Positions 412-29,236 of a stretch of 64,000 bases of DNA are shown one piece after another (position 1 is the first letter of the stretch; the number at the start of each line of letters is the position of its first letter). The DNA is from Megalonaias nervosa (lineage: Eukaryota > Mollusca > Bivalvia > Unionida > Unionidae). The notes beneath the pieces are model-generated. The model worked only from the letters and a program-made list of their open reading frames with translations, was not told the origin of the DNA and made no database searches. Position numbers and translations under genes: made by a program. The stretch lies in contig JAECUM010000792.1 of assembly GCA_016617855.1 (NCBI GenBank), positions 1 through 64,000 of the forward strand, read 5' to 3'.

Positions 412-672
412 AGCAGCAGGGGAGGGTAACCTCACAATTTGGAATTCAAATACACTATTAAGACATAATTTGACAGAAGAATCAAATGAGATAGATCTGC
501 CCTTCCTACAAGTATTTTGAATTCTTCATGGTAAACAGACCATTTGAGCGTCAAATATTATTAAGTTACAATTCTATCCTAGAATATACACCAAGACAAT
601 CTTATTTCTTACAAATATTTTGAAATATAATGAGTCACCCTTCCCTGCTGCTCAACGATTTAACGATAAAAT

Positions 673-1000
673 ATGCTTATAATGAACCATTGCAAGTGGT
701 TATTTCGAGACTCTAAGGTTTGTAACAAACGATGTCGCGAAGATCACTGCGCGTATCACAAGCAACTTTTGAAAAATCCCCCGGGTTACAAATTTGTATC
801 GGATGTGGATTTGGAACTCGGGCGGTTATTTGTGCAAAGTGTGGTGGTAACAAGTACAGTGCATTATTGCATTACAACCACAGAACTCCTCGGCGTGACA
901 TAAAAAAAAAGAAAAACCATCTACGGCACGAGAATATCTCCATAATTATGTTAAAACAATTCCTGCCGTTGTTGACCGGGTCGAAGATTACAGAATAATA
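673..1000 (+). pseudogene. Zinc-ribbon protein A, left copy (frameshifted)
   Basis: Left-arm counterpart of the intact gene at 7055-7435. It opens at an ATG near 682 in a TATAATG context and encodes the same N-terminal half (CKWLF, CNKRC, HCAYH). It then shifts frame in the A run near 770, where this copy has one A fewer than the right-arm copy. The second half (C-x2-CG, C-x2-CGGNKY) is readable only in the other frame up to about 1000. The single-base difference could be real or an assembly error. Confidence 0.7.
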
Positions 1001-1170
1001 AACCACCGGGAACAACAAAACAAAAAAAACAAGAAAATGAAAAATTCCGGGCCAAAGAAGAATTAAGGGAAATTAAAAAAAAATCTGTAGAAAAATGAGG
1101 TGATCAACCGAAGAATTTATAGAGCGACAAAAACAGCGTCAACGGCGATACGAATACTTGTATGTGTGAT

Positions 1171-1222
1171 GTGGAGTACTACAAAAATTATATTATTTTA
1201 TAGGAAAACTGTAGTACTCCAC
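1171..1222. repeat. Quasi-palindrome P1, left arm
   Basis: GTGGAGTACTAC... pairs with ...GTAGTACTCCAC around an AT-rich centre of about 28 bp. Mirror copy at 6902-6953. Confidence 0.85.
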
Positions 1223-1297
1223 AGTTATCGGGGCGGGACCACTGGCAAATAATTGCACAATTCCACGGTCAAAGAAATTATTTTTTTTAATTTTATA

Positions 1298-2008
1298 ATG
1301 AGCACCAGAAAGAAATTAACCGATGAAGAAATTGCAGAAATTAAATTGTTACGGGGCAAGACAACCGTCCGGGATATGCTTGACCGGTTTGACATTGGAA
1401 CAACAAGATTGTATCGTATTTGGGGCAGCGAAGAAATTATCGCGCCGAAGAACGATAACAAGTCAACGATCGATCGTCTTCAACAACACAACGACGATTT
1501 GTTGAGCGAAATTTCCGCGATGAAATCAACGATCGATCGTCTTCAACAGCACAGTGATGATCTGATAAAGCAGCAGTTAAAATACGACGCGGACATCATC
1601 AAGATGAAATTAAATAATGATCATCTGAAACAGTACAACGACGAATTGTTGGAAAAACATTACGAAGACAACACTAACATAATTACGCTACGATCTCAAC
1701 TTGGAGCAGCGAAACAACTTTGTAAAGACCGATCATTTGACGCGACGAAACAAAATAATAATGATCTGCTGAAACAGAATTGCGAGTATGAAAATGTCAA
1801 TGTCAAACTCCGAAATGAACTGTCGCGGATTATTTCGGAGCGGGATCAGCTGAAAAAGGATCTCAACGCGGTTATTGAACACCGGGATGAATTACATCGG
1901 GACTTAAAATTTGCAAATGACGATCGCTTACAACTACAGAAGAAAAATAAGTCGTTACGGTATCGTAATCAGCATTTAATGCTTGTCACCCATGGTTCGC
2001 GGACGTGA
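1298..2008 (+). CDS. HTH plus coiled-coil protein (left copy)
   Basis: 236 residues. The start is the ATG at 1298 in the TATAATG context shared by other genes of these elements; the open frame extends further upstream but without an equally good start. Residues about 5-42 look like a resolvase/Hin-type helix-turn-helix (LTDEEIAEIK, then TTVRDMLDRFDIG and TTRLYRIWG). From about residue 55 to the end the protein is a long heptad-rich coiled coil, with an internal duplication of STIDRLQQH followed by a DDL segment. A DNA-binding protein that oligomerises through its coiled coil is a reasonable inference; target and role are unknown. The right-arm copy at 6213-6821 is truncated by a one-base loss. 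I do not recognise a named family. Confidence 0.75.
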   Translation: MSTRKKLTDEEIAEIKLLRGKTTVRDMLDRFDIGTTRLYRIWGSEEIIAPKNDNKSTIDRLQQHNDDLLSEISAMKSTIDRLQQHSDDLIKQQLKYDADIIKMKLNNDHLKQYNDELLEKHYEDNTNIITLRSQLGAAKQLCKDRSFDATKQNNNDLLKQNCEYENVNVKLRNELSRIISERDQLKKDLNAVIEHRDELHRDLKFANDDRLQLQKKNKSLRYRNQHLMLVTHGSRT

Positions 2009-2059
2009 TGGATCGCCACATATTCATAATAATATTATAATGATTGTGGTGATCCATCA
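2006..2059. repeat. Quasi-palindrome P2, left arm
   Basis: TGATGGATCGCCAC pairs with GTGGTGATCCATCA. The centre (CATAATAATATTATAATG) is itself almost palindromic and holds a TATAATG. Mirror at 6062-6115. Confidence 0.85.
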
Positions 2060-2105
2060 ATGATGATGGAAGCATCAAATCGTCAGAATAATTGTTGCAT
2101 CGTCG

Positions 2106-2161
2106 CTGGCGAAAGTGTACAATTTCATAATAAATATATAATGATTGTACACTTTCGCCAG
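2106..2161. repeat. Quasi-palindrome P3, left arm
   Basis: CTGGCGAAAGTGTACAAT pairs with ATTGTACACTTTCGCCAG with an AT-rich centre. Mirror at 5960-6015. Confidence 0.87.
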
Positions 2162-2209
2162 TGGTCCATAGAAACATCAGATCGGTGAAATAATTGTTGT
2201 ATGGACCAT

Positions 2210-2263
2210 TGCGGAAAGTGTATAATTTTATAATAATTATATAATGATTGTACGCTTTCCGCA
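2210..2263. repeat. Quasi-palindrome P4, left arm
   Basis: TGCGGAAAGTGTA pairs with TACGCTTTCCGCA, with one mismatch, around TAATAATTATATAATG. Mirror at 5858-5911. Confidence 0.83.
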
Positions 2264-2337
2264 ACAACAATAGAAACCTCAGGTCAGTGATTGTTCCAGT
2301 AGTGTAGTTATGAGCACTTTTCCATCGCCAGGTCCAC

Positions 2338-2392
2338 TGTGGAGTACTACAATAATTATATAATATTATAATGAAAATTGTAGTACTCCACA
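2338..2392. repeat. Quasi-palindrome P5, left arm
   Basis: TGTGGAGTACTACAAT pairs with ATTGTAGTACTCCACA. The stem sequence is the same as in P1. Mirror at 5725-5778. Confidence 0.86.
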
Positions 2393-2430
2393 ATATGATA
2401 TCGGTGTGGTTAGGTAAATATTTTTTGGTT

Positions 2431-2741
2431 TTATGGCGAAGTACTCAACACTTTTTATTTTTCTAGAAATTCTTCAACGGTCGGTAATTGCTTTAATGAT
2501 CCGTATTTAGGTTTTCTGAGCTTGTAGTAAATAACCATGTTGGTATACTTGGTTCCGCCGCAACCAATACAAATATTGTTTTCGTTATGTAATCCTCGTC
2601 CACAACCAACACATGGTCGTGGTGGTTTTGTTCCTATTCTGATACGGCTTTGTGGATCCCGCAGAATTCACCAATACAATTTCGCCCACACAATTTTGAT
2701 GATCCCGTAAATAACCAGCAACATGTACCTTTTGCGGTCAT
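2431..2741 (-). pseudogene. Zinc-ribbon protein C, left copy (frameshifted)
   Basis: Mirror of 5376-5686. Reading from the ATG at 2741 gives CCWLF, LCGRNC and FCGIH. The frame then changes, and the second half (CVGCGRG, CIGCGGTKY, then TVEEFLQ) is readable only in another frame. Both arms carry the same break, so it predates or was copied with the inversion. Confidence 0.65.
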
Positions 2742-2847
2742 AATATAATATTTAGTAAAATTTAATTATAATGATGATGATGATTGTGGTGATCTATCAA
2801 CGATGATGGAAGCATCAAATCGTCAGAATAATTGTTGTATGGACCAT

Positions 2848-2901
2848 TGTGGAATCACCACATTTTCATAATAATATTATAATGATTGTCGTGATTCCAC
2901 A
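2848..2901. repeat. Quasi-palindrome P6, left arm
   Basis: TGTGGAATCACCACA pairs with TGTCGTGATTCCACA, one mismatch, around an AT-rich centre with TATAATG. Mirror at 5216-5269. The preceding segment (2790-2845) resembles the stretch after P2. Confidence 0.83.
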
Positions 2902-2950
2902 ACAACGAAAAAAATATCAGATCGGTGAAATAATAGTTCCAGTAGCGTAG

Positions 2951-3267
2951 TTATGAGCACTTTTCCATCACCAGTGGAGCAATAGTATGGTTGATCAAAA
3001 ATTCTTCAACGGTAGGAGGATTTTCCTTATGCACTTGATATTTTGGATTCCGCTACTCATAATAAATCAACATGGTTCTGTATTTGTTTCCTCCACATTT
3101 CGTACAAAGGTTTATTTTACCTCGATCTCCGTTACCACAGCTTAAACACGGGTTGGTTCCTGTTAATCCTTTTCTGATCATTTGATTGTGATAACCGCAG
3201 TATTCTCCGCGGCATCATTTACCGCACTTTCGCGTTGATCCTTGAAACAACCACGGACAATAATTAT
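2951..3267 (-). pseudogene. Zinc-ribbon protein B, left copy
   Basis: Mirror of 4850-5166, on the minus strand here. It encodes the same C-x2-CG and C-x2-CGGNKY ribbon and a C-terminal PTVEEFL motif, but has in-frame stops between conserved blocks. It is divergent from the primase-like gene that starts at 3353. Confidence 0.55.
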
Positions 3268-3352
3268 TTTCTACTTGAAAGGGGCATTATATAATACAAG
3301 CATAATTTATTTTTCAATTAGAATAAAAACCTGTGGGATATATTATTATATA

Positions 3353-4009
3353 ATGAGCGAAAGAAAGAATATAATCACCAGCAATGATACATCATTGATC
3401 GACCAGGATAATGATATATCTAATAGTAATATTTTAAATGAGCATCACAATTGTGATTTATTTTGTCTACTGAATAATTGTTCTCGTGTTGGTTCTGAAT
3501 CGTTTCGCGTTGAACCGCCCCCGGTAACCATAGAAGAACTAAGCGAAGATGAATATTTTGATCGTCTTGATGAAGATCTCTTCGATGGTCCACATGATTA
3601 CGTGAATGAACATTTTGAAACAGCTTCACAAGATGAATTAACCGATGTTGCCAAGTACAGTTACTGGCATTTGTGCGAGTATTATTCGTTGTTCAGTGAT
3701 GTTATTTGGCATTCAACGAAAGAACGCGCCATCAGAAATTTTATTGTTGTCGGTAACAAATACGAAACATCCGCCCAAGGAATCATTGTACAACACTTTG
3801 ATAAATTTTGCTTGTTTCCATCGGATGATTGTTTCAACAGATTCGCTAATGAATTTATTGGACAATCATCGGTTACCGAAATAATTCCTAAATTCCGTAC
3901 AAGATATCCTGTATTTGGTCTTGATACAAAATTCATCCGTGAGATATTAACGTATCGTCACAGAGAAACTGAAATCAAAGAAACTATCGAAAAAAATCAA
4001 CATCAATGA
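3353..4009 (+). CDS. Primase-like protein, N-terminal reading frame
   Basis: Starts at the ATG at 3353 (TATATAATGAGC) inside the left arm and runs into the unique centre; 218 residues before a stop at 4009. The N-terminal 70 residues are acidic and low-complexity. Near the end YPVFGLDTKF resembles the metal-binding first motif of archaeo-eukaryotic primases, which usually has two aspartates flanking one residue; here the first is glycine. The frame ends just after a 7-A run near 3990, and the homologous reading continues one frame over (see 4062-4697), which implies one extra base here. A primase of the type fused to D5-like helicases in large DNA viruses and Polinton-like viruses is inferred from order and motifs; moderate certainty. 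Confidence 0.6.
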   Translation: MSERKNIITSNDTSLIDQDNDISNSNILNEHHNCDLFCLLNNCSRVGSESFRVEPPPVTIEELSEDEYFDRLDEDLFDGPHDYVNEHFETASQDELTDVAKYSYWHLCEYYSLFSDVIWHSTKERAIRNFIVVGNKYETSAQGIIVQHFDKFCLFPSDDCFNRFANEFIGQSSVTEIIPKFRTRYPVFGLDTKFIREILTYRHRETEIKETIEKNQHQ

Positions 4010-4061
4010 CGTCATTGATTATTTTTCTCAATTATGCGATTGTCAACGTGATCGTGTATTC

Positions 4062-4697
4062 GTGTTTGATACGAATAACGGCTATCACGTGTTATGTAAA
4101 TCAACCACGGTAACGTTTGATCGACAACAAGAATTAACGAAACAAGCAGCAGATGAGAAAATCCCCCAGTGGAGCATTGATCGTCAAGCTGGTTTGTACA
4201 GTATCAAGTTGGATAAAACAAAATCGCATAAACCAGGTAAAAACCCTTCGTGTAAACGACTAATATCTCACAGTGATCATTTTGCGGCATCTGAGTTATT
4301 GACGTGTCCATGTGAGATTCAGCCGCGATATGTACGTGTTAATTTTGATGAAGATAACAAAATCATCATTAGTTGTGATAGTATTTCCATGGAAAATCTT
4401 GAAAGGATTTCCACCTCGTTAACAGGAGAACCTAATCAGTTAACCGGTATTGCTGCGGGATCTCAGAATAGATTTTCTATTGCACGACGACCAGATCATC
4501 ATTGTAACATTTGTAAACGCAGACACGGATACAACTACGTCGGTGACTTTATCGAAGATAAATGTGATACTTGCCTAGTTCTTCTATGGTTACCGGGTGC
4601 GGTTCAACGCGAAACGATTCAGAACCAACACGAGAACAATTATTCAGCAGACAAAATAAATCACAATTGTGATGTTCATTTAAAATATTACTATTAG
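4062..4697 (+). pseudogene. Primase-like protein, C-terminal frame, truncated by the fold-back
   Basis: This frame is open from before 4000 and continues the gene at 3353-4009 after a one-base offset at the A run near 3990. It carries FDTNNGYHVL, like the glycine/histidine motif of archaeo-eukaryotic primases, and a zinc-knuckle signature HHCNICKRRHGYNYVG typical of the end of viral primase domains. At 4576 it runs into the right arm, and its last 40 codons are an antisense reading of the gene's own 5' end. The downstream helicase domain expected of this family is absent. The gene is therefore broken twice: a frame offset and a truncation at the inversion junction. Confidence 0.6.
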
Positions 4698-4764
4698 ATA
4701 TATCATTATCCTGGTCGATCAATGATGTATCATTGCTGGTGATTATATTCTTTCTTTCGCTCAT
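4549..4764 (-). pseudogene. 5' fragment of the primase-like gene, right-arm copy
   Basis: Starts at the ATG at 4764 in the same TATAATGAGC context as 3353 and repeats its first 63 codons almost exactly. After crossing the arm boundary at 4576 it reads nonsense and stops at 4549. It marks the mirror copy of the gene start and shows that only the first part of the gene was duplicated. Confidence 0.75.
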
Positions 4765-4849
4765 TATATAATAATATATCCCACAGGTTTTTATTCTAAT
4801 TGAAAAATAAATTATGCTTGTATTATATAATGCCCCTTTCAAGTAGGAA

Positions 4850-5166
4850 ATAATTATTGTCCGTGGTTGTTTCAAGGATCAACGCGAAAGTGCGGTAAAT
4901 GATGCCGCGGAGAATACTGCGGTTATCACAATCAAATGATCAGAAAAGGATTAACAGGAATTAACCCGTGTTTAAGCTGTGGTAACAGAGTACGAGGTAA
5001 AATAAACCTTTGTACGAAATGTGGAGGAAACAAATACAGAACCATGTTGATTTATTATGAGTAGCGGAATCCAAAATATCAAGTGCATAAGGAAAATCCT
5101 CCTACCGTTGAAGAATTTTTGATCAACCATACTATTGCTCCACTGGTGATGGAAAAGTGCTCATAA
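4850..5166 (+). pseudogene. Zinc-ribbon protein B, right copy
   Basis: Translation gives CPWLFQGSTRKCGK, an in-frame stop, then CRGEYCGYH, CLSCGNRVRG and CTKCGGNKY, a second stop after MLIYYE, and a C-terminal PTVEEFL block. The domain order matches zinc-ribbon A, zinc-ribbon C and the gene at 26,609-26,926 of the 16-kb element. The stops indicate decay unless the reading is spliced or recoded. A TATAATG lies at about 4829 but in another frame. Confidence 0.6.
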
Positions 5167-5215
5167 CTACGCTACTGGAACTATTATTTCACCGATCTGA
5201 TATTTTTTTCGTTGT

Positions 5216-5269
5216 TGTGGAATCACGACAATCATTATAATATTATTATGAAAATGTGGTGATTCCACA
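5216..5269. repeat. Quasi-palindrome P6, right arm
   Basis: Mirror of 2848-2901: TGTGGAATCACGACA pairs with TGTGGTGATTCCACA. Confidence 0.83.
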
Positions 5270-5375
5270 ATGGTCCATACAACAATTATTCTGACGATTT
5301 GATGCTTCCATCATCGTTGATAGATCACCACAATCATCATCATCATTATAATTAAATTTTACTAAATATTATATT

Positions 5376-5686
5376 ATGACCGCAAAAGGTACATGTTGCT
5401 GGTTATTTACGGGATCATCAAAATTGTGTGGGCGAAATTGTATTGGTGAATTCTGCGGGATCCACAAAGCCGTATCAGAATAGGAACAAAACCACCACGA
5501 CCATGTGTTGGTTGTGGACGAGGATTACATAACGAAAACAATATTTGTATTGGTTGCGGCGGAACCAAGTATACCAACATGGTTATTTACTACAAGCTCA
5601 GAAAACCTAAATACGGATCATTAAAGCAATTACCGACCGTTGAAGAATTTCTACAAAAACAAAAAATGTTGATTATTTCGCCATAA
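5376..5686 (+). pseudogene. Zinc-ribbon protein C, right copy (frameshifted)
   Basis: ATG at 5376 follows an AT-rich leader. The first frame gives CCWLFTGSSKLCGRNC and EFCGIHKAV. After a frame change near 5478 the rest gives RPCVGCGRG, NICIGCGGTKYTNMVIYY and LPTVEEFLQ before the stop at 5684. The protein would have the same two zinc-binding halves as paralogues A and B and the gene in the 16-kb provirus. Confidence 0.65.
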
Positions 5687-5724
5687 AACCAAAAAATATT
5701 TACCTAACCACACCGATATCATAT

Positions 5725-5778
5725 TGTGGAGTACTATAGTTTCATTATAATATTATATAATTATTGTAGTACTCCACA
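5725..5778. repeat. Quasi-palindrome P5, right arm
   Basis: Mirror of 2338-2392, with a few differences in the loop side of the stem. Confidence 0.84.
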
Positions 5779-5857
5779 GTGGACCTGGCGATGGAAAAGT
5801 GCTCATAACTACACTACTGGAATAATTATTCCACCGATCTGAGGTTACTATCGTCGT

Positions 5858-5911
5858 TGCGGAAAGTGTACAGTCATTATATAATTATTATAAAATTATA
5901 AACTTTCCGCA
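5858..5911. repeat. Quasi-palindrome P4, right arm
   Basis: Mirror of 2210-2263; GCGGAAAGTGTA pairs imperfectly with the TTTCCGC side. Confidence 0.8.
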
Positions 5912-5959
5912 ATGGACCATACAACAATTATTTCACCGATCTGATGTTTCTATGGACCA

Positions 5960-6015
5960 CTGGCGAAAGTGTACAATCATTATATATTTATTATGAAATT
6001 GTACACTTTCGCCAG
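5960..6015. repeat. Quasi-palindrome P3, right arm
   Basis: Mirror of 2106-2161 with the full 18-bp stem retained. Confidence 0.86.
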
Positions 6016-6061
6016 CGACGATGCAACAACTATTCTGACGATTTGATGCTTCCATCATCAT

Positions 6062-6115
6062 TGATGGATCACCACAATCATTATAATATTATTATGAATA
6101 TGTGGCGATCCATCA
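6062..6115. repeat. Quasi-palindrome P2, right arm
   Basis: Mirror of 2006-2059: TGATGGATCACCAC pairs with GTGGCGATCCATCA. Confidence 0.85.
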
Positions 6116-6212
6116 CGTCCGCGAACCATGGGTGACAAGTATTAAATGCTGATTACGATCCCGTAACGACTTATTTTTCTTCAGTAGTTGTTAGCGATCA
6201 TCATTTGCAATT

Positions 6213-6821
6213 TTAAGTCCGATGTAATTCATCCCGGTGTTCAATAACCGCGTTGAGATCCTTTTTCAGCTGATCCCGCTCCGAAATAATCCGCGACAGT
6301 TCATTTCGGAGTTTGACATTGAAATTTTCATACTCGCAATTCTGTTTCAGCAGATCATTATTATTTTGTTTCGTCGCGTCAAATGATCGGTCTTTACAAA
6401 GTTGTTTCGCTGCTCCAAGTTGAGATCGTAGCGTAATTATGTTAGTGTTGTCTTCGTAATGTTTTTCCAACAATTCGTCGTTGTACTGTTTCAGATGATC
6501 ATTATTTAATTTCATCTTGATGATGTCCGCGTCGTATTTTAACTGCTGCTTTATCAGATCATCATTGTGCTGTTGAAGACGATCGATCGTTGGTTTCATC
6601 GCGGAAATTTCGCTCAACAAATCGTCGTTGTGTTGTTGAAGACGATCGATCGTTGACTTGTTATCGTTCTTCGGCGCGATAATTTCTTCGCTGCCCCAAA
6701 TACGATACAATCTTGTTGTTCCAATGTCAAACCGGTCAAGGATATCTCGGACGGTTGTCTTGTCCCGTAACGATTTAATTTCTGCAATTTCTTCATCGGT
6801 TAATTTCTTTCTGGTGCTCAT
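6213..6821 (-). pseudogene. HTH plus coiled-coil protein (right copy, truncated)
   Basis: Same start context (ATG at 6821 after TTATA) and near-identical HTH and coiled coil to the left copy. It stops at 202 residues instead of 236 because one G is missing from a GGG run near 6216. Substitutions such as LLRGK to SLRDK show real divergence between the arms. The truncation removes only the last part of the coiled coil, so the product might still function. Confidence 0.7.
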
Positions 6822-6901
6822 TATAAAACAAACAAAAAAAATATAATTTCTTTGACCGTGGAATTGTGCAATTATTTGCCAGTGGTCCCGCCCCGATAAC
6901 T

Positions 6902-6953
6902 GTGGAGTACTACAGTTTTCCTATAAAATAATATCATTTTTGTAGTACTCCAC
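6902..6953. repeat. Quasi-palindrome P1, right arm
   Basis: Mirror of 1171-1222. Confidence 0.84.
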
Positions 6954-7054
6954 ATCACACATACAAGTATTCGTATCGCCGTTGACGCTGTTTTTGTTGC
7001 TCTATAAATTGCTCGGGGGAACACCTCATTTTTCTACAGAGTTTTTTATTTCCC

Positions 7055-7435
7055 TTAATTCTTCTTTGGCCCGGAATTTTTCTTTTTCTTTTTTTCTTGT
7101 TGTTCCCGGTGGTTTATTATTCTGTAATCTTCGACCCGGTCAACAACGGCAGGAATTGTTTTAACGTAATTATGGAGATATTCCCGTGCCGTAGGTGGTT
7201 TTTCTTTTTTTATGTCACGCCGAGGAGTTCTGTGATTGTAATATTGCAGTAATGCACTGTATTTGTTACCACCACACTTTGCACAAATAACCGCCCTAGA
7301 TCCAAATCCACATCCGATACAAATTTCTAACCCGGGGGATTTTTTCAAAAGTTGCTTGTGATACGCGCAGTGATCTTCGCGACATCGTTTGTTACAAACC
7401 TTAGAGTCTCGAAATAACCACTTGCAGTGGTTCAT
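7055..7435 (-). CDS. Zinc-ribbon protein A (intact right copy)
   Basis: About 126 residues from the ATG at 7435 in a TATAATGAAC context. The N-terminal half has CKWLF, VCNKRC and HCAYH, a probable zinc-binding knuckle. The middle has CIGCGFG and CAKCGGNKY, a classic C-x2-C...C-x2-C zinc ribbon. The C-terminus is lysine-rich. It is clearly related in order and spacing to the gene at 26,609-26,926 of the 16-kb provirus and to paralogues B and C in the same arm. This is the only copy in the element with an uninterrupted frame. Nucleic-acid binding is likely; the exact role is unknown. Confidence 0.75.
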   Translation of the reverse strand: MNHCKWLFRDSKVCNKRCREDHCAYHKQLLKKSPGLEICIGCGFGSRAVICAKCGGNKYSALLQYYNHRTPRRDIKKEKPPTAREYLHNYVKTIPAVVDRVEDYRIINHREQQEKKKKKNSGPKKN

Positions 7436-7705
7436 TATAAACATATTTTATCGTTAAATCGTTGAGCAGCAGGGAAGGGTGACTCATTATATTTCAAAAT
7501 ATTTGTAAGAAATAAGATTGTCTTGGTGTATATTCTAGGATAGAATTGTAACTTAATAATATTTGACGCTCGAATGGTCTGTTTACCATGAAGAATTAAA
7601 AATACTTGTAAGAAGGGCAGATCTATTTCATTTGATTCTTCTGTCAAATTATGTCTTAATAGTGTATTTGAATTCCAAATTGTGAGGTTACCCTCCCCTG
7701 CTGCT

Positions 7706-7710
7706 CCTGT
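7706..7710. repeat. Target-site duplication, right copy (CCTGT)
   Basis: Matches 407-411 exactly; the inferred empty site reads GACCTGTTACAAAG. Confidence 0.8.
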
Positions 7711-12756: not shown

Positions 12757-12981
12757 TTACCGTTGCGATTTTTCCGTTTCTGGCAAAACGCTGCGATCCA
12801 TCAACGATTGCAATTCGTGTTGTAACTGGGACATCTCGGTCAAATGAGGATTGGGAGTTAAATGCGAGGTAAGTTGTTCTTCCCAACTATGGAATTCCAT
12901 CAATCTTTTATAAGGCACTAAATTCAGGTTTCCTCCTTCCATTGGATTCCAAAGGTCACGTTTGAGTTCTTTTGACTCCAA
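12757..12981 (-). pseudogene. LVPY-motif virion-type protein remnant
   Basis: 74 residues including LNLVPYKRLMEF and an amphipathic helix (MSQLQHELQSLMDRSV). A short protein with this motif downstream of the CECCLNIL protein is common in Polintons; that family link is from memory. It overlaps the preceding frame by about 25 bases. Confidence 0.45.
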
Positions 12982-13330
12982 AGACCTCTTTTGTCTTCTT
13001 GATGATTTTTATCTTTGACCTATCCCTTGTGAAGCAGGAGCTCCCACGAGTCCTGTAATCAGTGGTGCCAATGTGGCGTTTAGTATGGGTGCTAACATCA
13101 TGTGCACAAATCCTACGCGATGTACCAACATCTTTGTCTTTTGACGGATGGGTATTTTTTGGGGGGTCATTTGGTGAAGAACTTTTCGATGCTTGGCTAA
13201 GCATCCTTTCTGATTTCAAGATATTCAGACAACATTCGCACACGTTATCGATTACGTCTTTGCAGGCTGTTTGAATGATTTGTTTTTGCATGGGTGTAAG
13301 AGCTTTGGACAGAACGGACAACACGTTCAA
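12956..13330 (-). pseudogene. CECCLNIL-motif small Polinton protein
   Basis: The first 50 residues are the recognisable part: TPMQKQIIQTACKDVIDNV followed by CECCLNILKSERMLSQASK. Small proteins with this helical signature recur in Polintons and adintoviruses. The remainder is degraded, polar sequence. An upstream continuation in another frame lies at 13,327-13,548. Confidence 0.55.
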
Positions 13331-13548
13331 TATTTGGCTAAGCGAGGAAGCAGTCCGTTTCTTTTCTTTCGTTTGGGCGTAGAAGAGGGATGACTTCTGG
13401 GGGTGAAATCATTGTTTGTTCCGGGGCAAACACAATAGAAACTTGCGTAGATAACTTGGCACGCGTCCTTTAATTTTTTTTTGCGGGGGAGATTATTTTG
13501 GAGTTGGACAAAGGGTTTTAGACCAGTTTTTTTGACAACCTCTTTCAC
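13327..13548 (-). pseudogene. Upstream fragment of the small-protein region
   Basis: 73 residues ending NGLLPRLAKY, directly joined to the frame at 12,956-13,330. Contains a basic stretch (PKRKKRN). No independent identification. Confidence 0.35.
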
Positions 13549-13794
13549 TATCCAATCAATAAACCCTCCCCTTCACTTGCTCCTCTTTTTCTCTGGACGA
13601 TGGGGTCTTTCTGAGGTATTCGTCGATGCTTGGCTAAGCGTTTTATCGGATGCGGAGTCAAACGTCCAAACAATCCTTTTCTTTTTGGAAAAGAGAACGA
13701 CTATGGGGGTCGTGTGCACTTCTTTCAGGGGACCATCTTTTGGCGTTCAGGAGCATACAAACACTGATGCCCATCGTTGACCTCGGATCTTTTG

Positions 13795-14414
13795 TTATAG
13801 TGGAATGCGTCGCCACTGAATGTCTCTACGTCGCATCATTGTCACTCGAGGTTGAGGGGTTAGCAGCGTATTAAATCGGGACAGCTCTTGCTTAGATAAG
13901 TCCAGTAAACCCTGTAACATGCCCGATCTCTCTTGGACTTTGACTTTGGGGGCAGGTGCTTTGTTAGCAGCTGCCGCAGCAACTAAAGAGGTGGAGGGTA
14001 TCACCACTGGAGGTGAAGTTTCTGGAGACACGGGTTTCCATTTTTTCATCACATTAGGAAAGACGCGTGTCCAATTGGGTTTGGCTGGCATCACCAGCAA
14101 CGGGGAAGTGGAAGAACCTGAGGCTACTGGTAACGCGGTCACCGACGCTGAAGGTCGTGGTTTGGGGATGTAAGGTTGCGTCCTAGCCGAAGTGCCTCTC
14201 TTGCAGGTAGAAGCTGAATTCTGGGGACCTTCTTGTTCTGGGGACTTTTCCTGGGGCTGTGACCTTGTCTTGACACCACTGCTGTTTTCCTCTGGGTACG
14301 TTTGGGTCGGGAAGTGGCTTTTGTCTTGGGGATGACTTTTGGGGCATTGGAATCCCATTTTAAGAGGAAACAAATGATGACGTCTCCTAGAGAACCGCTA
14401 TCTCCAGGTTTCAA
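13795..14414 (-). pseudogene. Proline/serine-rich protein of the decayed Polinton
   Basis: Two overlapping minus frames (14,139-14,414 and 13,795-14,373) cover a low-complexity, proline-rich protein with an alanine-rich segment (LVAAAAANKAPAP). Its 5' part (GSLGDVIICFLLKWDSNAPK) is duplicated as a DNA fragment near 19,560-19,725, so this was once a multi-copy element. Function unknown. Confidence 0.45.
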
Positions 14415-14662
14415 AATGATTTGCTTTTTGGTTTGATCTGCCAGTTGCGTCAGGGCTACTTTGTTTCTGTCATAAAAATGCGTTTGGTTTGATGTGGATT
14501 TTGAATGATGCCTTGCAGTAATGGACGTGTGTCTCCGTAAACCATTGTAAGACTTCTTTGAGACTGGTTTCTAAGACACAAGAACGTATTTTTGGATTTT
14601 ATTAGCAACTGATGCTGTACAAAGTACGAATCAATTTGACGGGAAAAGAGATTGAAAGGACG

Positions 14663-15429
14663 TCATGTTGACGATGTGTGAGGCAGACCAAAAGTGTCCG
14701 AGGTTTTTATAGATTTTTTTAAGTCGACTGGAACGTGTACACGACAGGCACCAGAGGTGAAACAGATGGGTACGAAATCGCAAATAATTGGGATAGTGGG
14801 TTTTATATCCACGAGTAAATAGGCGTGAGGGGTTTGAGTGGCATCGTTGTTCGCATTTGTCAGCCAAGGAATTTCCAGCTGTTTGGTTAACACTTGCACT
14901 TGCGATTTATCTCTAGGACTTTTAAACAAGTCCACGTAATGAGCATTGAGACTGATGGTGCAATGAGCATTACTTTGTTGAAACAAATTTTGGGTGATGT
15001 AAATAACACTGGCATTACGATGATGCCATTTGCGCGTAAAAGACAGTTTAATTTCTTCTATGTCTTCTCCTAACATGTCGTCGAAGATGACCAGATGAGT
15101 TTAACCGGGGTCAGCCACTATCCCATCATCTTAGCCAGGAATGCCTTCCACAAACACGATGGAATCGCCTTGATTTTCACTCAGGAGGCTGTACACCGAT
15201 TGCCACTCTTTGTAACACCACACGATACGCTGAGGTGGACGATCGATCAAATGATTTTATGTTCGATCAAACGTTTGACAAATTCGGTTTTGCCTGAACT
15301 GCTGGGTCCAGCAATTAATATGTTAAAGGGATGAGGAGGATACAAGGCCTCCCAATTAGCACGATCTAAGTTTTCGTCGGTGACTTTGAAAGTGGTGGAA
15401 GAGGTAGAAGAGACAGCAGAGGTAGACAT
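14663..15429 (-). pseudogene. Packaging ATPase (FtsK/HerA-A32 type), frameshifted
   Basis: The N-terminal frame (15,247-15,429) ends with NILIAGPSSSGKTEFVKRLI, a Walker A motif. The C-terminal frame (14,663-15,076) has SVIYITQNLF, the sensor strand typical of the viral packaging ATPases. The 170 bases between them, which should hold the rest of the Walker B region, are readable only in other frames. The gene would translocate genomes into capsids. Confidence 0.75.
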
Positions 15430-15489
15430 AGTGCAGGGAATGTCACTTTTGAAACGATAACAGACAAGACTAGACTTTTTCTACTTCTT

Positions 15490-15804
15490 TCAGAACACGT
15501 TTATTTCAAAACATTTTTGAAATTGAGCACGGAAGACAAAAATACATAAAAGCCAAATGGTTAAGTACATCGATAAAATACACATCAAAACGATCAAAGT
15601 CGCGTAAAAACAAGTCACTGTACAACATTTTTGGTGACGAAGTTGTGGTGTCCTGGGGACACTGGGTAATGTTCTTAGAGGCTCTACACGTGGAACAGTG
15701 ACACAGGGGTCCTCCTGGAATGACCATTCGGGGATTTCTATGTCAATGATGGTCCTGCCATGAATACAATGGTTTTCCTCGGTGTAGGATTCTTCTTCTG
15801 ACAC
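15490..15804 (-). CDS. Small single-pass membrane protein
   Basis: 104 residues. The N-terminal 55 are acidic then proline-rich. Residues about 63-95 are a long hydrophobic segment (CFYATLIVLMCILSMYLTIW and on). It lies between the ATPase and the polymerase remnant in the same direction and is unbroken, perhaps because it is short. Confidence 0.45.
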   Translation of the reverse strand: MSEEESYTEENHCIHGRTIIDIEIPEWSFQEDPCVTVPRVEPLRTLPSVPRTPQLRHQKCCTVTCFYATLIVLMCILSMYLTIWLLCIFVFRAQFQKCFEINVF

Positions 15805-15858
15805 TGTGGCTAGCCCAGATTTACAAGATACGTTTTTACTGACCGTTTGAATTTATGA

Positions 15859-16177
15859 TCACAAATCTTGGGCATAGTTTGCAGCTTCTTTTGTCCAAGC
15901 CTCGAAACCCAAACTTTTCCAGTTACGTACATGTGGCCAGTGAGGGTGTAAGTCACAGGCTACACACACGTAAACATCTTCAGTGACTAAAAGTTGACCA
16001 ATCTCTTTTTCCCGTAGAGGTCGAGGAGTATCCAGATGAAAGCGCAAGGCGAACAGAATGAGGCTGTAGTATACATTTATAGCTATCACCCTCATGTTTT
16101 TGGTGGTAACTCACCGTACAGATCGTAAAGAACCCAAAGGAGTCGGCTGGTAAACGAAATAACAGAAAGGAAGTCAC
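15859..16177 (-). pseudogene. Unrecognised frames downstream of the polymerase remnant
   Basis: Two overlapping frames, neither recognisable. One contains VYVCVACDLHPHWPHVRNW, where the cysteine/histidine spacing could be a metal site. They may be the end of the polymerase in altered frames. Confidence 0.3.
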
Positions 16178-16199
16178 TTAGACACACATCAAACGTCGA

Positions 16200-17500
16200 C
16201 CCAAATTCATTGGATACAGTTCTCGTAAAAAGTGTTGGTAATCCGCCACAGTCTGAATACTGTTATTGATTTCCTTCCACTGCAATTGTTGTGGATCGGT
16301 TTTCAAACGGTGATCGTACTAGTTTTCCCACATGTTCACCACTTGGTATCCTTGCTGTTCTGACTTAAGTGGCGTTGACAATTAGCTTCGTACAAGTTTT
16401 CCATGGTACGTTGTAAAATTGTATTTCTAGTGTCACGTTGAGGGTAGCATATGCGACATCCATGAAATAAGCAACCGTTAAACTCGTACACGATCTTAGG
16501 GTTTTCTACGTCCCAGCCATCCACCGATTACGTTGTACTGGTCTGTTCACCTGCTCCTTTTCGGGAGTGTTGGATCCATTTGTCTTCCTTGTCACATAAG
16601 TAATGTAGCAAGCATAGGGCTTTGACCAAGTAATGACGTTTGACAAAATTGGTAGTTTGAGGGCGTATGACAGCCAGGGTGTTCTCGGACGTGCATCGGT
16701 TGCGGTATACCAAAGAACATGCTTTGGTAATAGTGCAGGCTTTTTCCAAGGGATCGATTACTCCATGCTGCATAAACAATTCTCGAAATTTCCCACAGCA
16801 TCGTCGTAAAATGTCCGCGTCGCAACGAGAGTACTTTAACATTTCTTCCTGAAAGTCGAAGGGGTCCGACGCGTTAGTGAGGTACGAAGCGTAGAAAGCT
16901 TCTTGTTGTTCGTTACACATGTTGTTGGGGTCATAGTAGTGAGCATCAGGCAAATGTTGTAGAACGGCATGTTGATTGGCTTCGGTATTAAAAAAGTGCG
17001 GAAAATAGCCTTTGGCCATATCTATCATTCCAAATGTTTTAGGCATTCGGCTTAAAGGCATTGACAAGTAACTTATAGAATCTATAAATCGCACTTATCC
17101 CACTTGCATGTAGATGAGTTTGTCTCCGTTCAACGAAACTTTAGGGTGTTCGGTGCATTGGTCTGTATAGTATTTAAGAAGCAAGTGTCCGTTGTATCCC
17201 AGAGAAATTGTGAGCCATCACTGTGGCATAGCAAAGACAGTCTCCATAACGTTCGATGTCCTCTTGACTTCATGTCTCGTCGATAGGGTCTAAGATCCAG
17301 TGGGTGAAGTAGGCCAGCGTGTTTGGTCCCTGAAAGATTTTTTCATGTCCTCCAGGAATCTTGCTACAGTGAGGCCAATGACTAAAAATAGGCTCTTGGA
17401 TGCATTTCGCGCACGCTAGGTGAACCACGCAGAAATTAGGAATCTAAATACCGGTCTCTTGCATGTATTCGAAATCGAAAAAGACGAATTTCCCTTTCTT
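16200..17500 (-). pseudogene. Polinton DNA polymerase B, N-terminal half
   Basis: Protein-primed family B polymerase remnant. From 5' to 3' on the minus strand: FVFFDFEYMQETGI (exonuclease I), VMAHNFSG (exonuclease II, near 17,210), RFIDSISYLSMPLSRMPKTF, YSRCDADILRRC (exonuclease III, near 16,830), then WDVENPKIVYEFNGCLFHGC (near 16,510), the conserved pre-palm block of this family. At least four stops or frame changes interrupt it. The palm motifs are absent, so the gene is truncated as well as decayed. Confidence 0.85.
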
Positions 17501-19725: not shown

Positions 19726-20631
19726 ATTATCCAAATAATTCTGTTAAAAATACGAGTCGCTTCTTGTAATCCATATTTACAACGAAATAAAAGAACGTGA
19801 TTTTGAAACCCTTAACATTACATGAAATTTGGCATTTTGCTTGCATTACTTTGATAACATAATGTGCATACCGCTTATGCCAAGCCACACAGATCTCAAA
19901 GTTTGATATTTTTTTTGATAGGAAAAAAAAGAAAGTTCTTCTCAGGAAGAGAAGAAATTAACCAAAATATTAAATTTACCAGAAAATCCGAGAAATGATC
20001 AATTATTCCGCATAGCCAGAAACTTGGTGAAAACTCCGCGCTTTGTGGAAAAGCTGCAGATCTGGTCACCCAGCATGCTATATTATACATTTAAGAAAAG
20101 GAGCATAGCTTCGATGAAGTTATTCCAAATACTTGACACAATGATCATTGTGCAATATGAATTATGATAAGATTACTCCAAATACTTGATCCATAGATCA
20201 ATGGGTAGTAGGAGTTGTGATGAAGGCATTCCAAATAATACTAGACCTATAGATCAAACAGCAATAGGAATTATGACGAAGGTAATTAGCGCAAACCATT
20301 AAATAAAGATATCAAGAGGCGCAAGAAAAGTAGTTTACTTTCGTTTTTAGGACCTCCTCCAGAGGAGCAGCTTCTGACACGTGAGACAATTTCACGCAAC
20401 AGCAGCGCAGTTGCATGACCGAATTGCCTGACGAGACAAGCGGGCCGAATCGGACATGTGGTCGATGATGAACAAAATAGTCGTCCTATTACAGCCACTA
20501 TTTACGCCGAGTCTGCTGCGTATGTACGTCAGCAAGCTCAAGTGCCCGAGTTCAAATTATAAAAACGTGTTATTTATTTTGAATATTACAATGCACACAT
20601 ATAAATTAGGCAAGCTGTTTGATTGTGCCGC
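19726..20631. other. Left flank of the 16-kb provirus
   Basis: No confident gene. At about 20,450-20,570 one plus frame reads VVDDEQNSRPITATIYAESA, which has coding-like composition and could be debris of another element. A stop precedes it. Confidence 0.45.
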
Positions 20632-20903
20632 AGCAGCAGGAAGGGTGAACAGACAACTTTGTACGAGACCTTATTTTACGAAAATAAAGGTTCCTACAGG
20701 GGCTGAAAAATAAGGTCAATAATGATAAACCGAACCCTCCTAACAATATTATTACCGTATAGTTTGAAAAAACGGATAATAAATCATTTTAGTTAGCTCA
20801 TTTTTGTTAATTTATTTTTGACATTTTTGTTTTTTGTGTTATAGTGCGTTTAGTTTACTCGGTAGGTCACTCAAAGTTGTAGAGTTCACCCTTCCTGCTG
20901 CTG
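20632..20903 (+). repeat. Left terminal inverted repeat
   Basis: Pairs with 36,408-36,677. The outer 20 bases (20,631-20,650, CAGCAGCAGGAAGGGTGAAC) are repeated exactly in reverse complement at its inner end (20,884-20,903), so the repeat is itself bounded by a 20-bp inverted pair. Confidence 0.9.
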
Positions 20904-20918
20904 TAATTCTTGATAAAA

Positions 20919-21590
20919 TCAAGGACCAAAGTTTTTATCTAGACCTACACGATATCTAGATCTTGGGTCATGTAGATTTATTGTAATAAATCCAAACGGA
21001 ACAGCTTGTGCTTTTGAAAAGAAGTTTCTGAATTTCATCATATCCATATCCCCTGAACACCAAGTATAATAAATATTCTGTAAAGTATAATTATCTACTC
21101 CATTAAACACAACCAAAATATTGCAGTTGTCTCTGATCACTTTAGGTATTTGTGTATATCTTTGTGTAACATAAATCACGTCCGTATTCTTGTGTCTACC
21201 TCGAGAAAATATTCTAGCTGGATTTGTTTGTCTGTCCAACATAATATCATCGTACACCACTAAATTATTAATAAATCCATTTAGGTCATCTACAGATGGG
21301 GCTTCATCAATATCGGTGATAAAGTCAATAATATCGTCTCCGTCTTCATTCAGCAATTTTGCATTTTCATTAAAATCTTTAAGTATTTTGTAACAGTGTT
21401 GATCATCTACGGATGGTGCTACTAAATACAATTTACTCCATTTTAACCATCGCATTATTAAATTTAATAATAGTTGTGTTTTACCCGATCCAGATGGACC
21501 TATTATAATCATTCTTATCGAATTTGGTAATGCTGGATGATGCTTCACTGGCTCCTGTTTTCGTGTCGCCGAAAAGTCAATTATATCCAT
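20919..21590 (-). CDS. Genome-packaging ATPase (FtsK/HerA-A32 type)
   Basis: 223 residues. Walker A GPSGSGKT at residues 31-38, Walker B VVYDD at about 111-115, and a downstream sensor strand (TDVIYVTQRYTQIPK). This compact arrangement is characteristic of the packaging ATPases of Polintons, adintoviruses and nucleocytoplasmic large DNA viruses, which pump DNA into preformed capsids. It is divergent from the PLA2 gene, with only 12 bases between the two start codons, and ends 16 bases from the inner edge of the left TIR. Unbroken. Confidence 0.92.
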   Translation of the reverse strand: MDIIDFSATRKQEPVKHHPALPNSIRMIIIGPSGSGKTQLLLNLIMRWLKWSKLYLVAPSVDDQHCYKILKDFNENAKLLNEDGDDIIDFITDIDEAPSVDDLNGFINNLVVYDDIMLDRQTNPARIFSRGRHKNTDVIYVTQRYTQIPKVIRDNCNILVVFNGVDNYTLQNIYYTWCSGDMDMMKFRNFFSKAQAVPFGFITINLHDPRSRYRVGLDKNFGP

Positions 21591-21602
21591 ATTATTAATA
21601 AC

Positions 21603-22118
21603 ATGAGTCTATATTGTGTTCGATGTAGATTATCTACACCCACTACTGGACTGACAACAATAATAACAAAAAATAAACGACGTGCATTAACAGGTAAATG
21701 TGTAAAATGCGGCACGAAAAAATATAAATTTATCTCCATGTCTGATTCAGGGACAAAGACAGGTGGAGATATAGCCGCTTTATTAGGAAAATTACCTGGA
21801 ACTCCGTGGGCTAAATATCCGGGAGAAAAACACTTACCAGGATATAATTATTGTGGTCCTGGAACCCGACTTGACATCCGACTTGATGATCAAGATCAAC
21901 CAAGATCAGGAGAGCATCCAGTAAATAAGATTGATCAAGTGTGTCATGTTCATGATGTTGCGTATAAAAGTAAAGATTTACAACAAAGGCATCTCGCAGA
22001 TGTAAAATTGATTCATGCATTAAATTCTATACCAAATAAATCTGTCAGAGATAAATTAGTTAGTTTTCTAGTAAAATCTGCCATGAAAAGTAAAATAATG
22101 CTAGGGGCTGGTAATTAA
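21603..22118 (+). CDS. Zinc-finger / phospholipase A2 protein
   Basis: 171 residues from the ATG at 21,603; the longer upstream frame overlaps the ATPase and is unlikely. Residues 4-43 form a small four-cysteine finger (YCVRC ... KCVKCGTKKYKF) of the DUF5679 type. Residues 80-125 are a parvovirus-style secreted PLA2 domain: calcium loop YNYCGPGT (81-88) and the catalytic His-Asp pair in CHVHDVAY (114-121). In parvoviruses this activity breaches endosomal membranes during entry, and related domains occur in Polinton-like viruses; the same role here is inferred. All catalytic residues are present. Confidence 0.88.
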   Translation: MSLYCVRCRLSTPTTGLTTIITKNKRRALTGKCVKCGTKKYKFISMSDSGTKTGGDIAALLGKLPGTPWAKYPGEKHLPGYNYCGPGTRLDIRLDDQDQPRSGEHPVNKIDQVCHVHDVAYKSKDLQQRHLADVKLIHALNSIPNKSVRDKLVSFLVKSAMKSKIMLGAGN

Positions 22119-22134
22119 TTATATAAATATTATA

Positions 22135-23130
22135 ATGGAATCCATTTATTATAGCCCAAGAGGATATTGGAGAGGTAGATCAGCGATTACTAAATTATCT
22201 GAAGCAGCAAAAGTCTCACGTTCTGTTGCTGCAGCGTGGTTAGCACGACAGGCAATATGGCAAATTTATCTACCACCACCTAAAAATATTCAATATTCAC
22301 ATTTTGATGTCAGCGTCCCTAATGAGGTTCATCAAGCAGATATTTTGTTTTTACCGCACGATACTGTTAAAACACGTGGACGAAAATCACACACATATAA
22401 ATACGCATTAACTGTCGTTGACGTTGCAAGTAGATATAAAGATGCTGAACCATTATCAACAAAGACAGCGTTTGAAGTTGCATCTGCATTTGAACGAATT
22501 TATCAGCGAGGATCTGGACCACAAGGTGGTCTACGATGGCCACAATTATTACAGGTTGATCCGGGTAAAGAATTTCTTGGTGCAGTATTATCGTTGATGA
22601 AGAAACATAATGTTAAAATCAGACGAGGACATACTGAAATTCATCGTGATCAGGCAATTGTTGAACGATTTAATCGAACACTTGCCGAACGGTTATTTGG
22701 ATACCAATATGCAAAAGAAATATCTACTGACTTTAAATCCGGTGAGAGATCTCGTGAATGGGTTACGAGGTTACCAAGTGTGATATCTGCATTAAATAAT
22801 GAAATTACTCGTTCAACTTCCATGAAACCTTCTAATGCGATTACAAAAAAATATATACCCCGTAGTAATGACAGACATCAACCTCAACCAGTATTAGGTA
22901 ATGTAATTGTAAGATATTTATACGAACCTGGTGAATTTGAAGGTGGTAAAAAAAGAGCAACTGATCCTATCTGGAGCGTGACTACACATACAATTTCTAG
23001 TGTAGTTAGATCCACTGGTAGACCCCCAATCTACAGATTAGATTCTACAGCCCCTCAACGTGGATTTGTACGTGAACAATTACAGGTAATCCCTGAAGAC
23101 ACACAATTACCACCACATACAATTACATAA
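22135..23130 (+). CDS. DDE integrase (retrovirus-like rve fold)
   Basis: 331 residues, start in TATTATAATGG. The N-terminus (YYSPRGYWRGRSAI) is the typical Polinton integrase zinc-finger/HTH lead-in. The catalytic triad is D69 (HQADILFLPHD), D142 (LLQVDPGKEF) and E177 (DQAIVERFNRT). The C-terminal 80 residues (about 250-320) are a chromo/SH3-like tail. It would insert the linear genome into host DNA and is the natural candidate for mobilising other elements with similar ends. Unbroken; 16 bases after the PLA2 gene. It is convergent with the helicase gene. Confidence 0.93.
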   Translation: MESIYYSPRGYWRGRSAITKLSEAAKVSRSVAAAWLARQAIWQIYLPPPKNIQYSHFDVSVPNEVHQADILFLPHDTVKTRGRKSHTYKYALTVVDVASRYKDAEPLSTKTAFEVASAFERIYQRGSGPQGGLRWPQLLQVDPGKEFLGAVLSLMKKHNVKIRRGHTEIHRDQAIVERFNRTLAERLFGYQYAKEISTDFKSGERSREWVTRLPSVISALNNEITRSTSMKPSNAITKKYIPRSNDRHQPQPVLGNVIVRYLYEPGEFEGGKKRATDPIWSVTTHTISSVVRSTGRPPIYRLDSTAPQRGFVREQLQVIPEDTQLPPHTIT

Positions 23131-23169
23131 CCAGAACCAGGGCGTGCAGCGCCCCGACGTCGATTACAT

Positions 23170-25164
23170 TCAAGACAGGTCAGCATCACTATTAATTCTG
23201 TCTACGGTAAATTGTCTTGGATTATTATTCGAATATTGCCACAACATATTACAGTTACAACTTGCACAATTATTATTCTGTAGTTGTTTTAGTTTTATAA
23301 TAAATTCAACATCAATATCAAAATCACGATTATTTTTTTTGTCACACTGCTTATAACCAGATAGTTTTTTTCTTATTACGTCATTGCTAACTGTCTGATT
23401 ATTATTTTCTGTAAAATTCATAATAGCCCTATGTAGTTGAGATATTCTTCTGACTCTAGAAACTGCGAGATAGACTAAATTCGACCATTCGATCCGATCA
23501 TCTATAATCCAAATATTTGTATCAGAAATAGTTAACCCCCGTGAAGAATGGATTGTTATAGCATATCCTAATGTCCACGGTGATTTATTCATATTCAGCG
23601 CATTCTCAACGACATTAATATCGACTAAAACAATATCATTCAAGACAAGATTCTGTACTCGGACACTTTCAGTGTCTCCACCAGGAATTTCAACATCAAT
23701 ATTCTGTCGTCGAGTATCTGCTGGGCGATGACACAAAGGTACAGGTAGATCTGAAAACTTTTCTTTATGTAACATAAATAATTTATTCTGTAGTTCATCA
23801 CGAACTATCTTTCTACTTGCAACTATTAAATCAGTGGGATTCCATAAATTTAGAAAATCATTCATAGAAGTCTCTGGAATTACTCCGCGCATTATTTCAC
23901 ATTGTACTCTGTCTGGTTGTAGTCTGATTAGTCTTTTAAATTCCCTCAACGGTTCATCAATAGCTCTATGATCATCATTTATTTCTTCATAATAATCTAC
24001 ATTATTCTTCAACCATTCATGTGGAGACTGTCCAACAAAGGGTGGTGGTTGACCATGATCACCACACATTATTATAGCAGTATTTTTCGTCAATAACCAA
24101 TCAGGAAATGTTTTTAATATTTCTAACGACACCGTGCATATCTCGTCCCATATAATATATTTAGGTATATATTTTTCACCCATTCGTTCGGGAGTCCATG
24201 TGTCTCCACACCATCTAAAGAAACTATGATAAGTACACGATTTTGCTCCTCGTTCTTTTATTTCTCTGGCGAGTTTATGTGTCGGAGTCAAAACAATTAT
24301 ATCTGAATTATTATTCATGAATAATTTAATCACACGAGTTGTTTTACCTGACCCTCCACACCCATTAAGATAAACAGTTTTATGTCTAGCCACGGGATCA
24401 TATACAAATGGTGCTGATGATTTTGATAGTTTATTATTTTTGTGATATATTTCCTTAATTTCAACGTCGGCAGATTCAGAATAACTAAGTATATTTTCCT
24501 GTTTTATTCTCCATGATCCCCATTCACCATTACCAAGTAGTGGTTTTAATAAATCCGTATATTTTTTATTTATATAAAACGAATCCGTTGCGACTCTGAC
24601 AGCATCACGAGAAAATTTATTTATCATAGACAGTAGATTTATAGAAACATATGCCAACATAGATGATCTTAAATGAGTAAATTGTGGTGAGTCACCATCA
24701 AGATAACTCACAATTGTACCTAGTTTGGTTCCGTCTGACAAATAAGCATTACTCCGATTTATAAATGTGTTTTTTTCTGTTGTATCAGCAATTATAAAAT
24801 CGAGTTCAGCATCGTCCATAATTAATCTTGTACAGTGTCTTTTATGATCATAGGCTCCTCCTTGAGTAAATTTACCAATTATCTTTCTACCAAGATCTTT
24901 TGCAAGTTTTTCATCATGCTCGTCTCTGCATTTACGTATATTATTAGTAATTTTAATAATATCATCTTCATTAAGATTAGGGAATTCTTTCCTGGCATCA
25001 TCAATATTAAATCTATTTGGTTCTGGTAACCAAATTTGTTTCTGTGGACTATATGATATAATGGCCTCACTCACCTGTAAAGATATTAAAATTCCAACAT
25101 CAAGCATATATCGCAATAGTACTATTGGAACCCAACATCGCTCTGAAAATGTCTTCCAAACCAA
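23170..25164 (-). CDS. PolB palm C-terminal part fused to SF1 helicase and HNH
   Basis: Open frame of 664 codons that continues the polymerase at 25,122-26,564. Residues about 10-215 hold the rest of the palm, with VRVATDSFYI (about 189-198) as motif C. A superfamily 1 helicase follows: GCGGSGKT (268-275), TPTHK, IIWDE (about 337-341), MCGDHGQPPP, ITIHSSRGLT and VYLAVSRVRR. The C-terminus starts an HNH-like module (NCASC, then FTVDRIN). The stop at 23,170 is premature: a further cysteine pair (CLECNRRRGAA) follows at once in another frame. No natural start codon exists, since the N-terminus is a continuation of the upstream frame. Confidence 0.82.
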   Translation of the reverse strand: MVWKTFSERCWVPIVLLRYMLDVGILISLQVSEAIISYSPQKQIWLPEPNRFNIDDARKEFPNLNEDDIIKITNNIRKCRDEHDEKLAKDLGRKIIGKFTQGGAYDHKRHCTRLIMDDAELDFIIADTTEKNTFINRSNAYLSDGTKLGTIVSYLDGDSPQFTHLRSSMLAYVSINLLSMINKFSRDAVRVATDSFYINKKYTDLLKPLLGNGEWGSWRIKQENILSYSESADVEIKEIYHKNNKLSKSSAPFVYDPVARHKTVYLNGCGGSGKTTRVIKLFMNNNSDIIVLTPTHKLAREIKERGAKSCTYHSFFRWCGDTWTPERMGEKYIPKYIIWDEICTVSLEILKTFPDWLLTKNTAIIMCGDHGQPPPFVGQSPHEWLKNNVDYYEEINDDHRAIDEPLREFKRLIRLQPDRVQCEIMRGVIPETSMNDFLNLWNPTDLIVASRKIVRDELQNKLFMLHKEKFSDLPVPLCHRPADTRRQNIDVEIPGGDTESVRVQNLVLNDIVLVDINVVENALNMNKSPWTLGYAITIHSSRGLTISDTNIWIIDDRIEWSNLVYLAVSRVRRISQLHRAIMNFTENNNQTVSNDVIRKKLSGYKQCDKKNNRDFDIDVEFIIKLKQLQNNNCASCNCNMLWQYSNNNPRQFTVDRINSDADLS

Positions 25165-26564: not shown

Positions 26565-26608
26565 ATAATTAAGACAAGTATTTTAATTAAAATTTTAGTA
26601 TATATATA

Positions 26609-26926: not shown

Positions 26927-26940
26927 TATTATTATATAAA

Positions 26941-27513: not shown

Positions 27514-27554
27514 CTCTGTACTCTTAATAAATAAATTGTATATAGTTTTTGACT

Positions 27555-27960: not shown

Positions 27961-28014
27961 ATATAATAATTATTTCTTTAAAATAAAATAGCATCGTTCC
28001 GAATACTGTCAACA

Positions 28015-29205: not shown

Positions 29206-29236
<31 letters not shown>

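Follow-up and report, generated by a model that had tools for sequence, protein, structure and literature searches.

A fold-back element with Polinton-like ends in the genome of the mussel Megalonaias nervosa and its possible origin

How does one end of a virus-like transposon come to lie in a host genome twice, the second time as an inverted copy of the first? This question is raised by an element at positions 412-7705 of contig JAECUM010000792.1 of Megalonaias nervosa (assembly GCA_016617855.1), whose first 64,000 nucleotides were analysed (the window). Self-alignment resolves the element into a left arm (412-3544, plus strand), a single-copy spacer of 1028 bp (3545-4572) and a right arm (4573-7705, minus strand) that is the inverted copy of 412-3544. 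Thus, one end, comprising a terminal repeat, a zinc-ribbon gene here named znA, a helix-turn-helix and coiled-coil gene here named cc, two further zinc-ribbon genes (znB and znC) and the start of a primase-helicase gene, is present on both sides of a single-copy loop in opposite orientations, and nothing remains of the rest of the parent gene. A preliminary description of this locus had called the arms mirror images of equal length. The lengths are indeed equal (3133 bp each), but the mirror is imperfect: a global alignment of the arms contains 3050 matches, 69 mismatches and 28 gap columns, with nine indel events and an ungapped identity of 97.8%, and a second aligner found 73 differences in 3119 positions. 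The same description had placed the start of the right arm inside the reading frame of the central gene and the fold about 4.2 kb from one end. Both statements hold. The gene starts at 3353 in the left arm and is cut at approximately 4572, where the mirrored copy begins, and the distance from 412 to 4572 is 4161 bp. At the junction itself (4572-4580), gene sequence is joined to its own inverted 5' part with an imperfect overlap of at most approximately 8 nt.

The complete unit sits within one exact 5-bp target duplication, CCTGT (407-411 and 7706-7710), as had been proposed. The right flank of the element is a repeat, and at least 14 further places match it over more than 800 bp at 86-95% identity (40 of 7296 candidates scored). 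The empty site, with a single copy of the target, was found in all six of the flank paralogues that were fetched from these 14, and reads CCTGT in five of them and CCCGT in one.

The genome (2.19 Gb in 54709 contigs) contains at least 57 matches to positions 412-1412, on 31 contigs by our count (40 of 223 candidates scored), while the primase stretch has at least 51 (40 of 475 candidates scored). A longer parent reaching past the primase, for which the preliminary description had suggested a search, was found among these relatives: in five of ten loci compared the central gene continues past 4572, the other five being without a plus-strand match. Judged by its motifs, the gene of the relatives codes for an AEP-type primase fused to a UL9-like SF2 helicase, and contig C43595 contains it as one intact frame of 1210 amino acids (locus L013, 5901-9530). 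The catalytic motifs of AEP primases are DxD, H, and D. Among 15 aligned relatives only the second D varies (14 keep it); the first D, the H, and the final D are the same in all. The window copy reads YPVFGLD and has G instead of the first catalytic D, a position occupied by D in all 15 relatives (DLD in 14, DLH in L022). The helicase part matches PF02399 in each of the three helicase-bearing proteins given (best E 2.6e-12), and that of one relative weakly matches chains of the herpesvirus origin-binding protein in PDB (E about 0.007). The primase pieces have no relatives outside this genome in the protein database, viral contigs, or Pfam, and only weak matches to a ribosomal protein in PDB (E 0.28 and above); an AlphaFold model of the primase part is poor (mean predicted local distance difference test score, pLDDT, 52). 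The zinc-ribbon protein likewise has no relatives in viral contigs. As expected of a derivative, no integrase, capsid, ATPase, PolB, or protease gene was detected in 412-7705 by frame translations, Pfam, and comparison with a neighbouring Polinton-like element.

The structure is not confined to the window. Fold-back arms are present in five of 15 other contigs, which were picked from the best matches and from visible pairs so that this proportion is not a frequency, with lengths of 2.2 kb (C25532), 4.8 kb (C43328), 1.9 kb (C12577), 1.15 kb (C43108), and 0.62 kb (C1620). No such arms were seen in nine of the 15, several of them examined in part only. The fold-back therefore recurs and does not represent one fixed design of long terminal repeats, because the arms of the six copies range from 0.62 to 4.8 kb and have different end points. 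The 5-bp duplication is perfect in five of the six fold-backs, in C25532 only after allowing two substitutions at the tip, and was not seen in C43328. The only genes detected in the six fold-backs are those of the one end. The tip motif also occurs on seven of ten contigs in which no fold-back was read. C1620 was rejected as a simple fold-back: its mirrored strand lies in three inverted segments with filler (L021, C1620 56280-56650), which suggests repeated template switches or later deletions. In C13187 (L027), part of the cc gene (200 bp, 100% identical) is repeated in inverted form directly beside a run of N; this contig may hold a seventh fold-back with an unreadable arm.

With regard to the mode of formation, we lean toward the view that the window element, as a non-autonomous fold-back, derives from a longer Polinton-like element and was folded by break repair after integration. 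The parent would have inserted as a longer element and would later have suffered an internal break. Its right terminal repeat could then have annealed to, or invaded, the inverted left repeat and copied the left arm inward, and the new copy would have been fused to the left side of the break at a point of little homology. Such a repair would leave both target duplications intact, replace the middle, and lengthen an originally short terminal repeat. The arms would then decay separately, with some conversion between them.

A folded and an unfolded copy at one site allow the order of events to be read from divergence, and C25532 and C39839 provide such a pair. C25532 is folded, and C39839 is unfolded and reads on, with breaks, through the primase-helicase gene. 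The left flanks share 95.2% identity over 1.6 kb and 91.2% over 0.4 kb, up to the element; the right flanks share 91.4%, 92.2%, and 94.4%, each over approximately 0.5 kb, and are colinear from C25532 9032 and C39839 24015. By these alignments the two contigs represent the same locus, either as haplotypes or as duplicates. The left arm is orthologous between them, because its identity (94.2%) is close to that of the left flank. The arms of C25532 differ from each other by 1.96%, or by approximately 0.8% (15 of about 1890 positions) when one island of 300 bp is excluded, and each differs from C39839 by 5.8-5.9%; both arms agree against C39839 at 108 sites and differ from one another at 43. Descent of the unfolded from the folded form is difficult to envisage unless another element donated sequence by conversion. 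Most simply, insertion in this lineage would have been followed by the split of the two copies and then by folding, so that the fold-back would have formed in place. A second observation fits stepwise copying in place: in three of the six fold-backs divergence is significantly lower in the inner part of the arm than in the outer part. The differences number 10/1078 (inner) versus 63/2041 (outer) in the window copy (C664), 2/994 versus 41/1196 in C25532, and 4/4305 versus 7/471 in C43328, and in each case none of 300 permutations reached the observed split.

Several points weigh against formation after integration. The pair of C25532 and C39839 is one case only, and C25532 6617-9031 has no counterpart, nor is there a right end, in the stretch of C39839 examined, so that the full unfolded structure was not seen. 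Most simply, this reflects a deletion in C39839 that also removed the right end. Conversion between the arms could lower the arm divergence of C25532. At the window's own site no unfolded copy was found, as the six fetched flank copies are all empty. The contrast between inner and outer arm is borderline in C43108 (14 of 300 permutations) and absent in C12577 (130/300) and in C1620 (182/300), the inner part of the latter diverging more than the outer. Inner-biased gene conversion gives the same contrast, and any clustering of differences would also trip the permutation test. In C25532, 28 of the 43 differences lie in the 300-bp island, whereas the simplest model predicts them across an old terminal repeat; this weakens the argument that the outer part of this arm is such a repeat. 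The outermost 240 bp of the window element also contain only four differences.

The most serious competing explanation, which we consider possible but less probable, holds that a linear genome replicating extrachromosomally produced the fold-back and that a retrovirus-like integrase then inserted this defective molecule whole. Such an origin agrees with a complete unit inside an exact 5-bp duplication, with a junction of little homology, and with the restriction of the detected genes to one end in all six fold-backs. It also agrees with the presence in the window of a Polinton-like element (20630-36679) that has a retrovirus-like integrase match just under the Pfam cut-off. However, the sole same-site comparison favours folding after insertion. 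Furthermore, arms born together should diverge evenly, but those of three of the six fold-backs do not, and none of 18 loci of the same genome with matches spans the window junction, so that no second copy of it was found. The preliminary description had proposed precisely such a snap-back genome, integrated as such. Its core, a one-end fold-back of a longer virus-like element with an exact target duplication, stands and is strengthened by the recurrence of the structure; an origin before integration was not established, and C25532 and C39839 speak for the opposite order. The stronger proposition, that the window element is the snap-back genome of a Polinton-like virus inserted whole and that such genomes repeatedly seeded non-autonomous families here, is in our view doubtful. 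Snap-back defective genomes are known as free molecules. Those of linear DNA viruses resemble the mussel elements in that one end is inverted and duplicated around a single-copy loop, whereas the one mussel case that could be tested speaks rather for folding in the chromosome. Kinship to the snap-backs of adenoviruses, parvoviruses, or poxviruses is an analogy.

It is improbable that this family normally has long terminal repeats and that no folding took place. The gene znA occurs twice, facing inward, on nine of 31 contigs among the matches listed, with three pairs approximately 16 kb apart (C52170, C10438, and C51931), and some members of the family may therefore normally have a terminal repeat that includes znA. 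Against a general long-repeat structure without a longer parent, which the preliminary description had named as the finding that would speak against a fold-back, arm length differs between copies, the arms end at different places inside different genes, and some relatives have a longer gene in single copy. Even less probable is an origin from two elements inserted head to head, or from recombination between two separate copies. The abundance of the family, as seen from the number of primase matches, would offer opportunity for such events, but a single target duplication brackets the whole, and the arms do not group with different relatives: each is the closest relative of the other, and the next best sequences reach 77-85% identity in the outer part and at most 90% in pieces of about 320 bp. 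An assembly artefact, which the preliminary description had named as a possible refutation and for which it speaks that palindromes are hard to assemble, is hardly credible given the exact duplication against empty sites and the mismatches and indels between the arms, and a duplicate created by assembly is very unlikely because both arms decayed alike (26 private changes on the left, 22 on the right, and four unassigned, polarised with one relative as outgroup and counted only in columns with an outgroup letter).

Extension of terminal inverted repeats from internal sequence is already known from Galileo, a transposon of the P superfamily in Drosophila. According to Marzo et al. 2013 (PMC3573991), the repeats of Galileo are extended by inverted copying of adjacent internal sequence and are longest in non-autonomous copies; the mechanism proposed there is that a broken repeat is repaired from the other repeat and copies internal sequence, which lengthens the inverted repeat. 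The same process acting on a Polinton-like insertion would give the structures seen here, and terminal repeats of variable length made from internal sequence are common to Galileo and the mussel fold-backs. The two systems differ in that the mussel element is virus-like and belongs to another class, that its arms reach 4.8 kb compared to at most approximately 1.26 kb in Galileo, and that a same-site pair of folded and unfolded copies is available on the mussel side. A remark in PMC3573991 also cites inverted-repeat expansion in Polintons. Apart from this remark, no fold-back, snap-back, or repeat-extended Polinton appears among the literature matches listed, which is not proof of absence. In yeast, as described in part of PMC6103520, inverted repeats near a break give rise to fold-backs or inverted dimers and shift repair toward break-induced replication. 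Proteins that combine an AEP primase with a UL9-like SF2 helicase are described in sections of PMC11253617 for mimivirus (R8), African swine fever virus (F1055L), Ostreid herpesvirus 1, and mriyaviruses. The gene of the mussel parents resembles these in domain order and helicase type, a likeness of architecture alone, but sits in elements with Polinton-like ends. Folding is a recurrent route by which virus-like transposons shrink to long palindromes that retain their ends. Such palindromic elements may drive rearrangement of the host genome, because long near-perfect palindromes are known as fragile sites.

The Polinton-like element at 20630-36679 lies 13 kb from the fold-back and has terminal repeats of about 280 bp (88%). 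Both elements have the tip motif AGCAGCAGG.AGGGT and, further in, an inverted motif, and a homologue of znA (38%, E 3.5e-12) is found inside 20630-36679. The terminal repeats of the window element are thus related to those of a Polinton-like element, which they also resemble in layout. Polintons have a target duplication of 6 bp; the window element differs in its 5-bp duplication, and its parents in the primase fused to a UL9-like helicase. In 20630-36679, ATPase, phospholipase A2, and double jelly-roll capsid matches exceed the Pfam cut-off, an HNH match is also present, and retrovirus-like integrase matches fall just under the cut-off and protease matches below it. No clear target duplication was read for this neighbour. 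Its large replication protein was considered as a PolB and rejected, as Pfam gives only SF1-type helicase domains and no PolB match; the element may belong with the Tlr1-like helicase elements of PMC11071308. Only two of the 25 matches of its capsid protein (33402-34772) have a named organism; they stem from the freshwater mussels Sinanodonta woodiana and Potamilus streckersoni, a clue to the host. In C28333 (L024, 8000-13830), the N-terminal part of a large replication protein of the neighbour's type is followed directly by the zinc-ribbon/cc/znA end module, so that this module is associated with replication genes of two kinds. A copy of the primase-helicase gene in C14767 lies approximately 4 kb from the genes of p29 and p30, two uncharacterised proteins of the neighbour's type.

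Within the fold-back, the outer terminal repeat occupies 412-652 (plus strand) and carries AGCAGCAGGGGAGGGT at its tip, a motif that recurs, inverted, 241 bp further in; the counterpart of this repeat occupies 7465-7705 (minus strand). The left znA (670-1066, plus) is split over frames and the right copy (7055-7444, minus) forms an open frame. The cc gene is located at 1298-2008 (plus) and 6213-6821 (minus), the right copy having an HTH_7 match just under the Pfam cut-off. Both copies of znB (2455-2741, minus; 5376-5686, plus) are split over two frames, and znC is found at 2933-3265 (minus) and 4852-5184 (plus). Between them lies the truncated and frameshifted N-terminal part of the primase-helicase gene (3353-4572, plus), which extends over the overlapping frames 3239-4009 and 3951-4697, retains AEP motifs, and lacks the helicase part; its mirrored N-terminus (4552-4764, minus) lies in the reverse frame 4549-4875. 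Palindromes of approximately 46-56 nt, often in families, are located between the genes (1170-1223, 2010-2259, 2338-2392, 2852-2897, and their mirror copies) and could be terminators or polyadenylation hairpins. Elsewhere in the window, 12956-17094 has a partly higher G+C content (0.42-0.45 at 13 to 17 kb) and broken frames resembling pieces of ATPase and polymerase genes, and is perhaps a second, decayed element.

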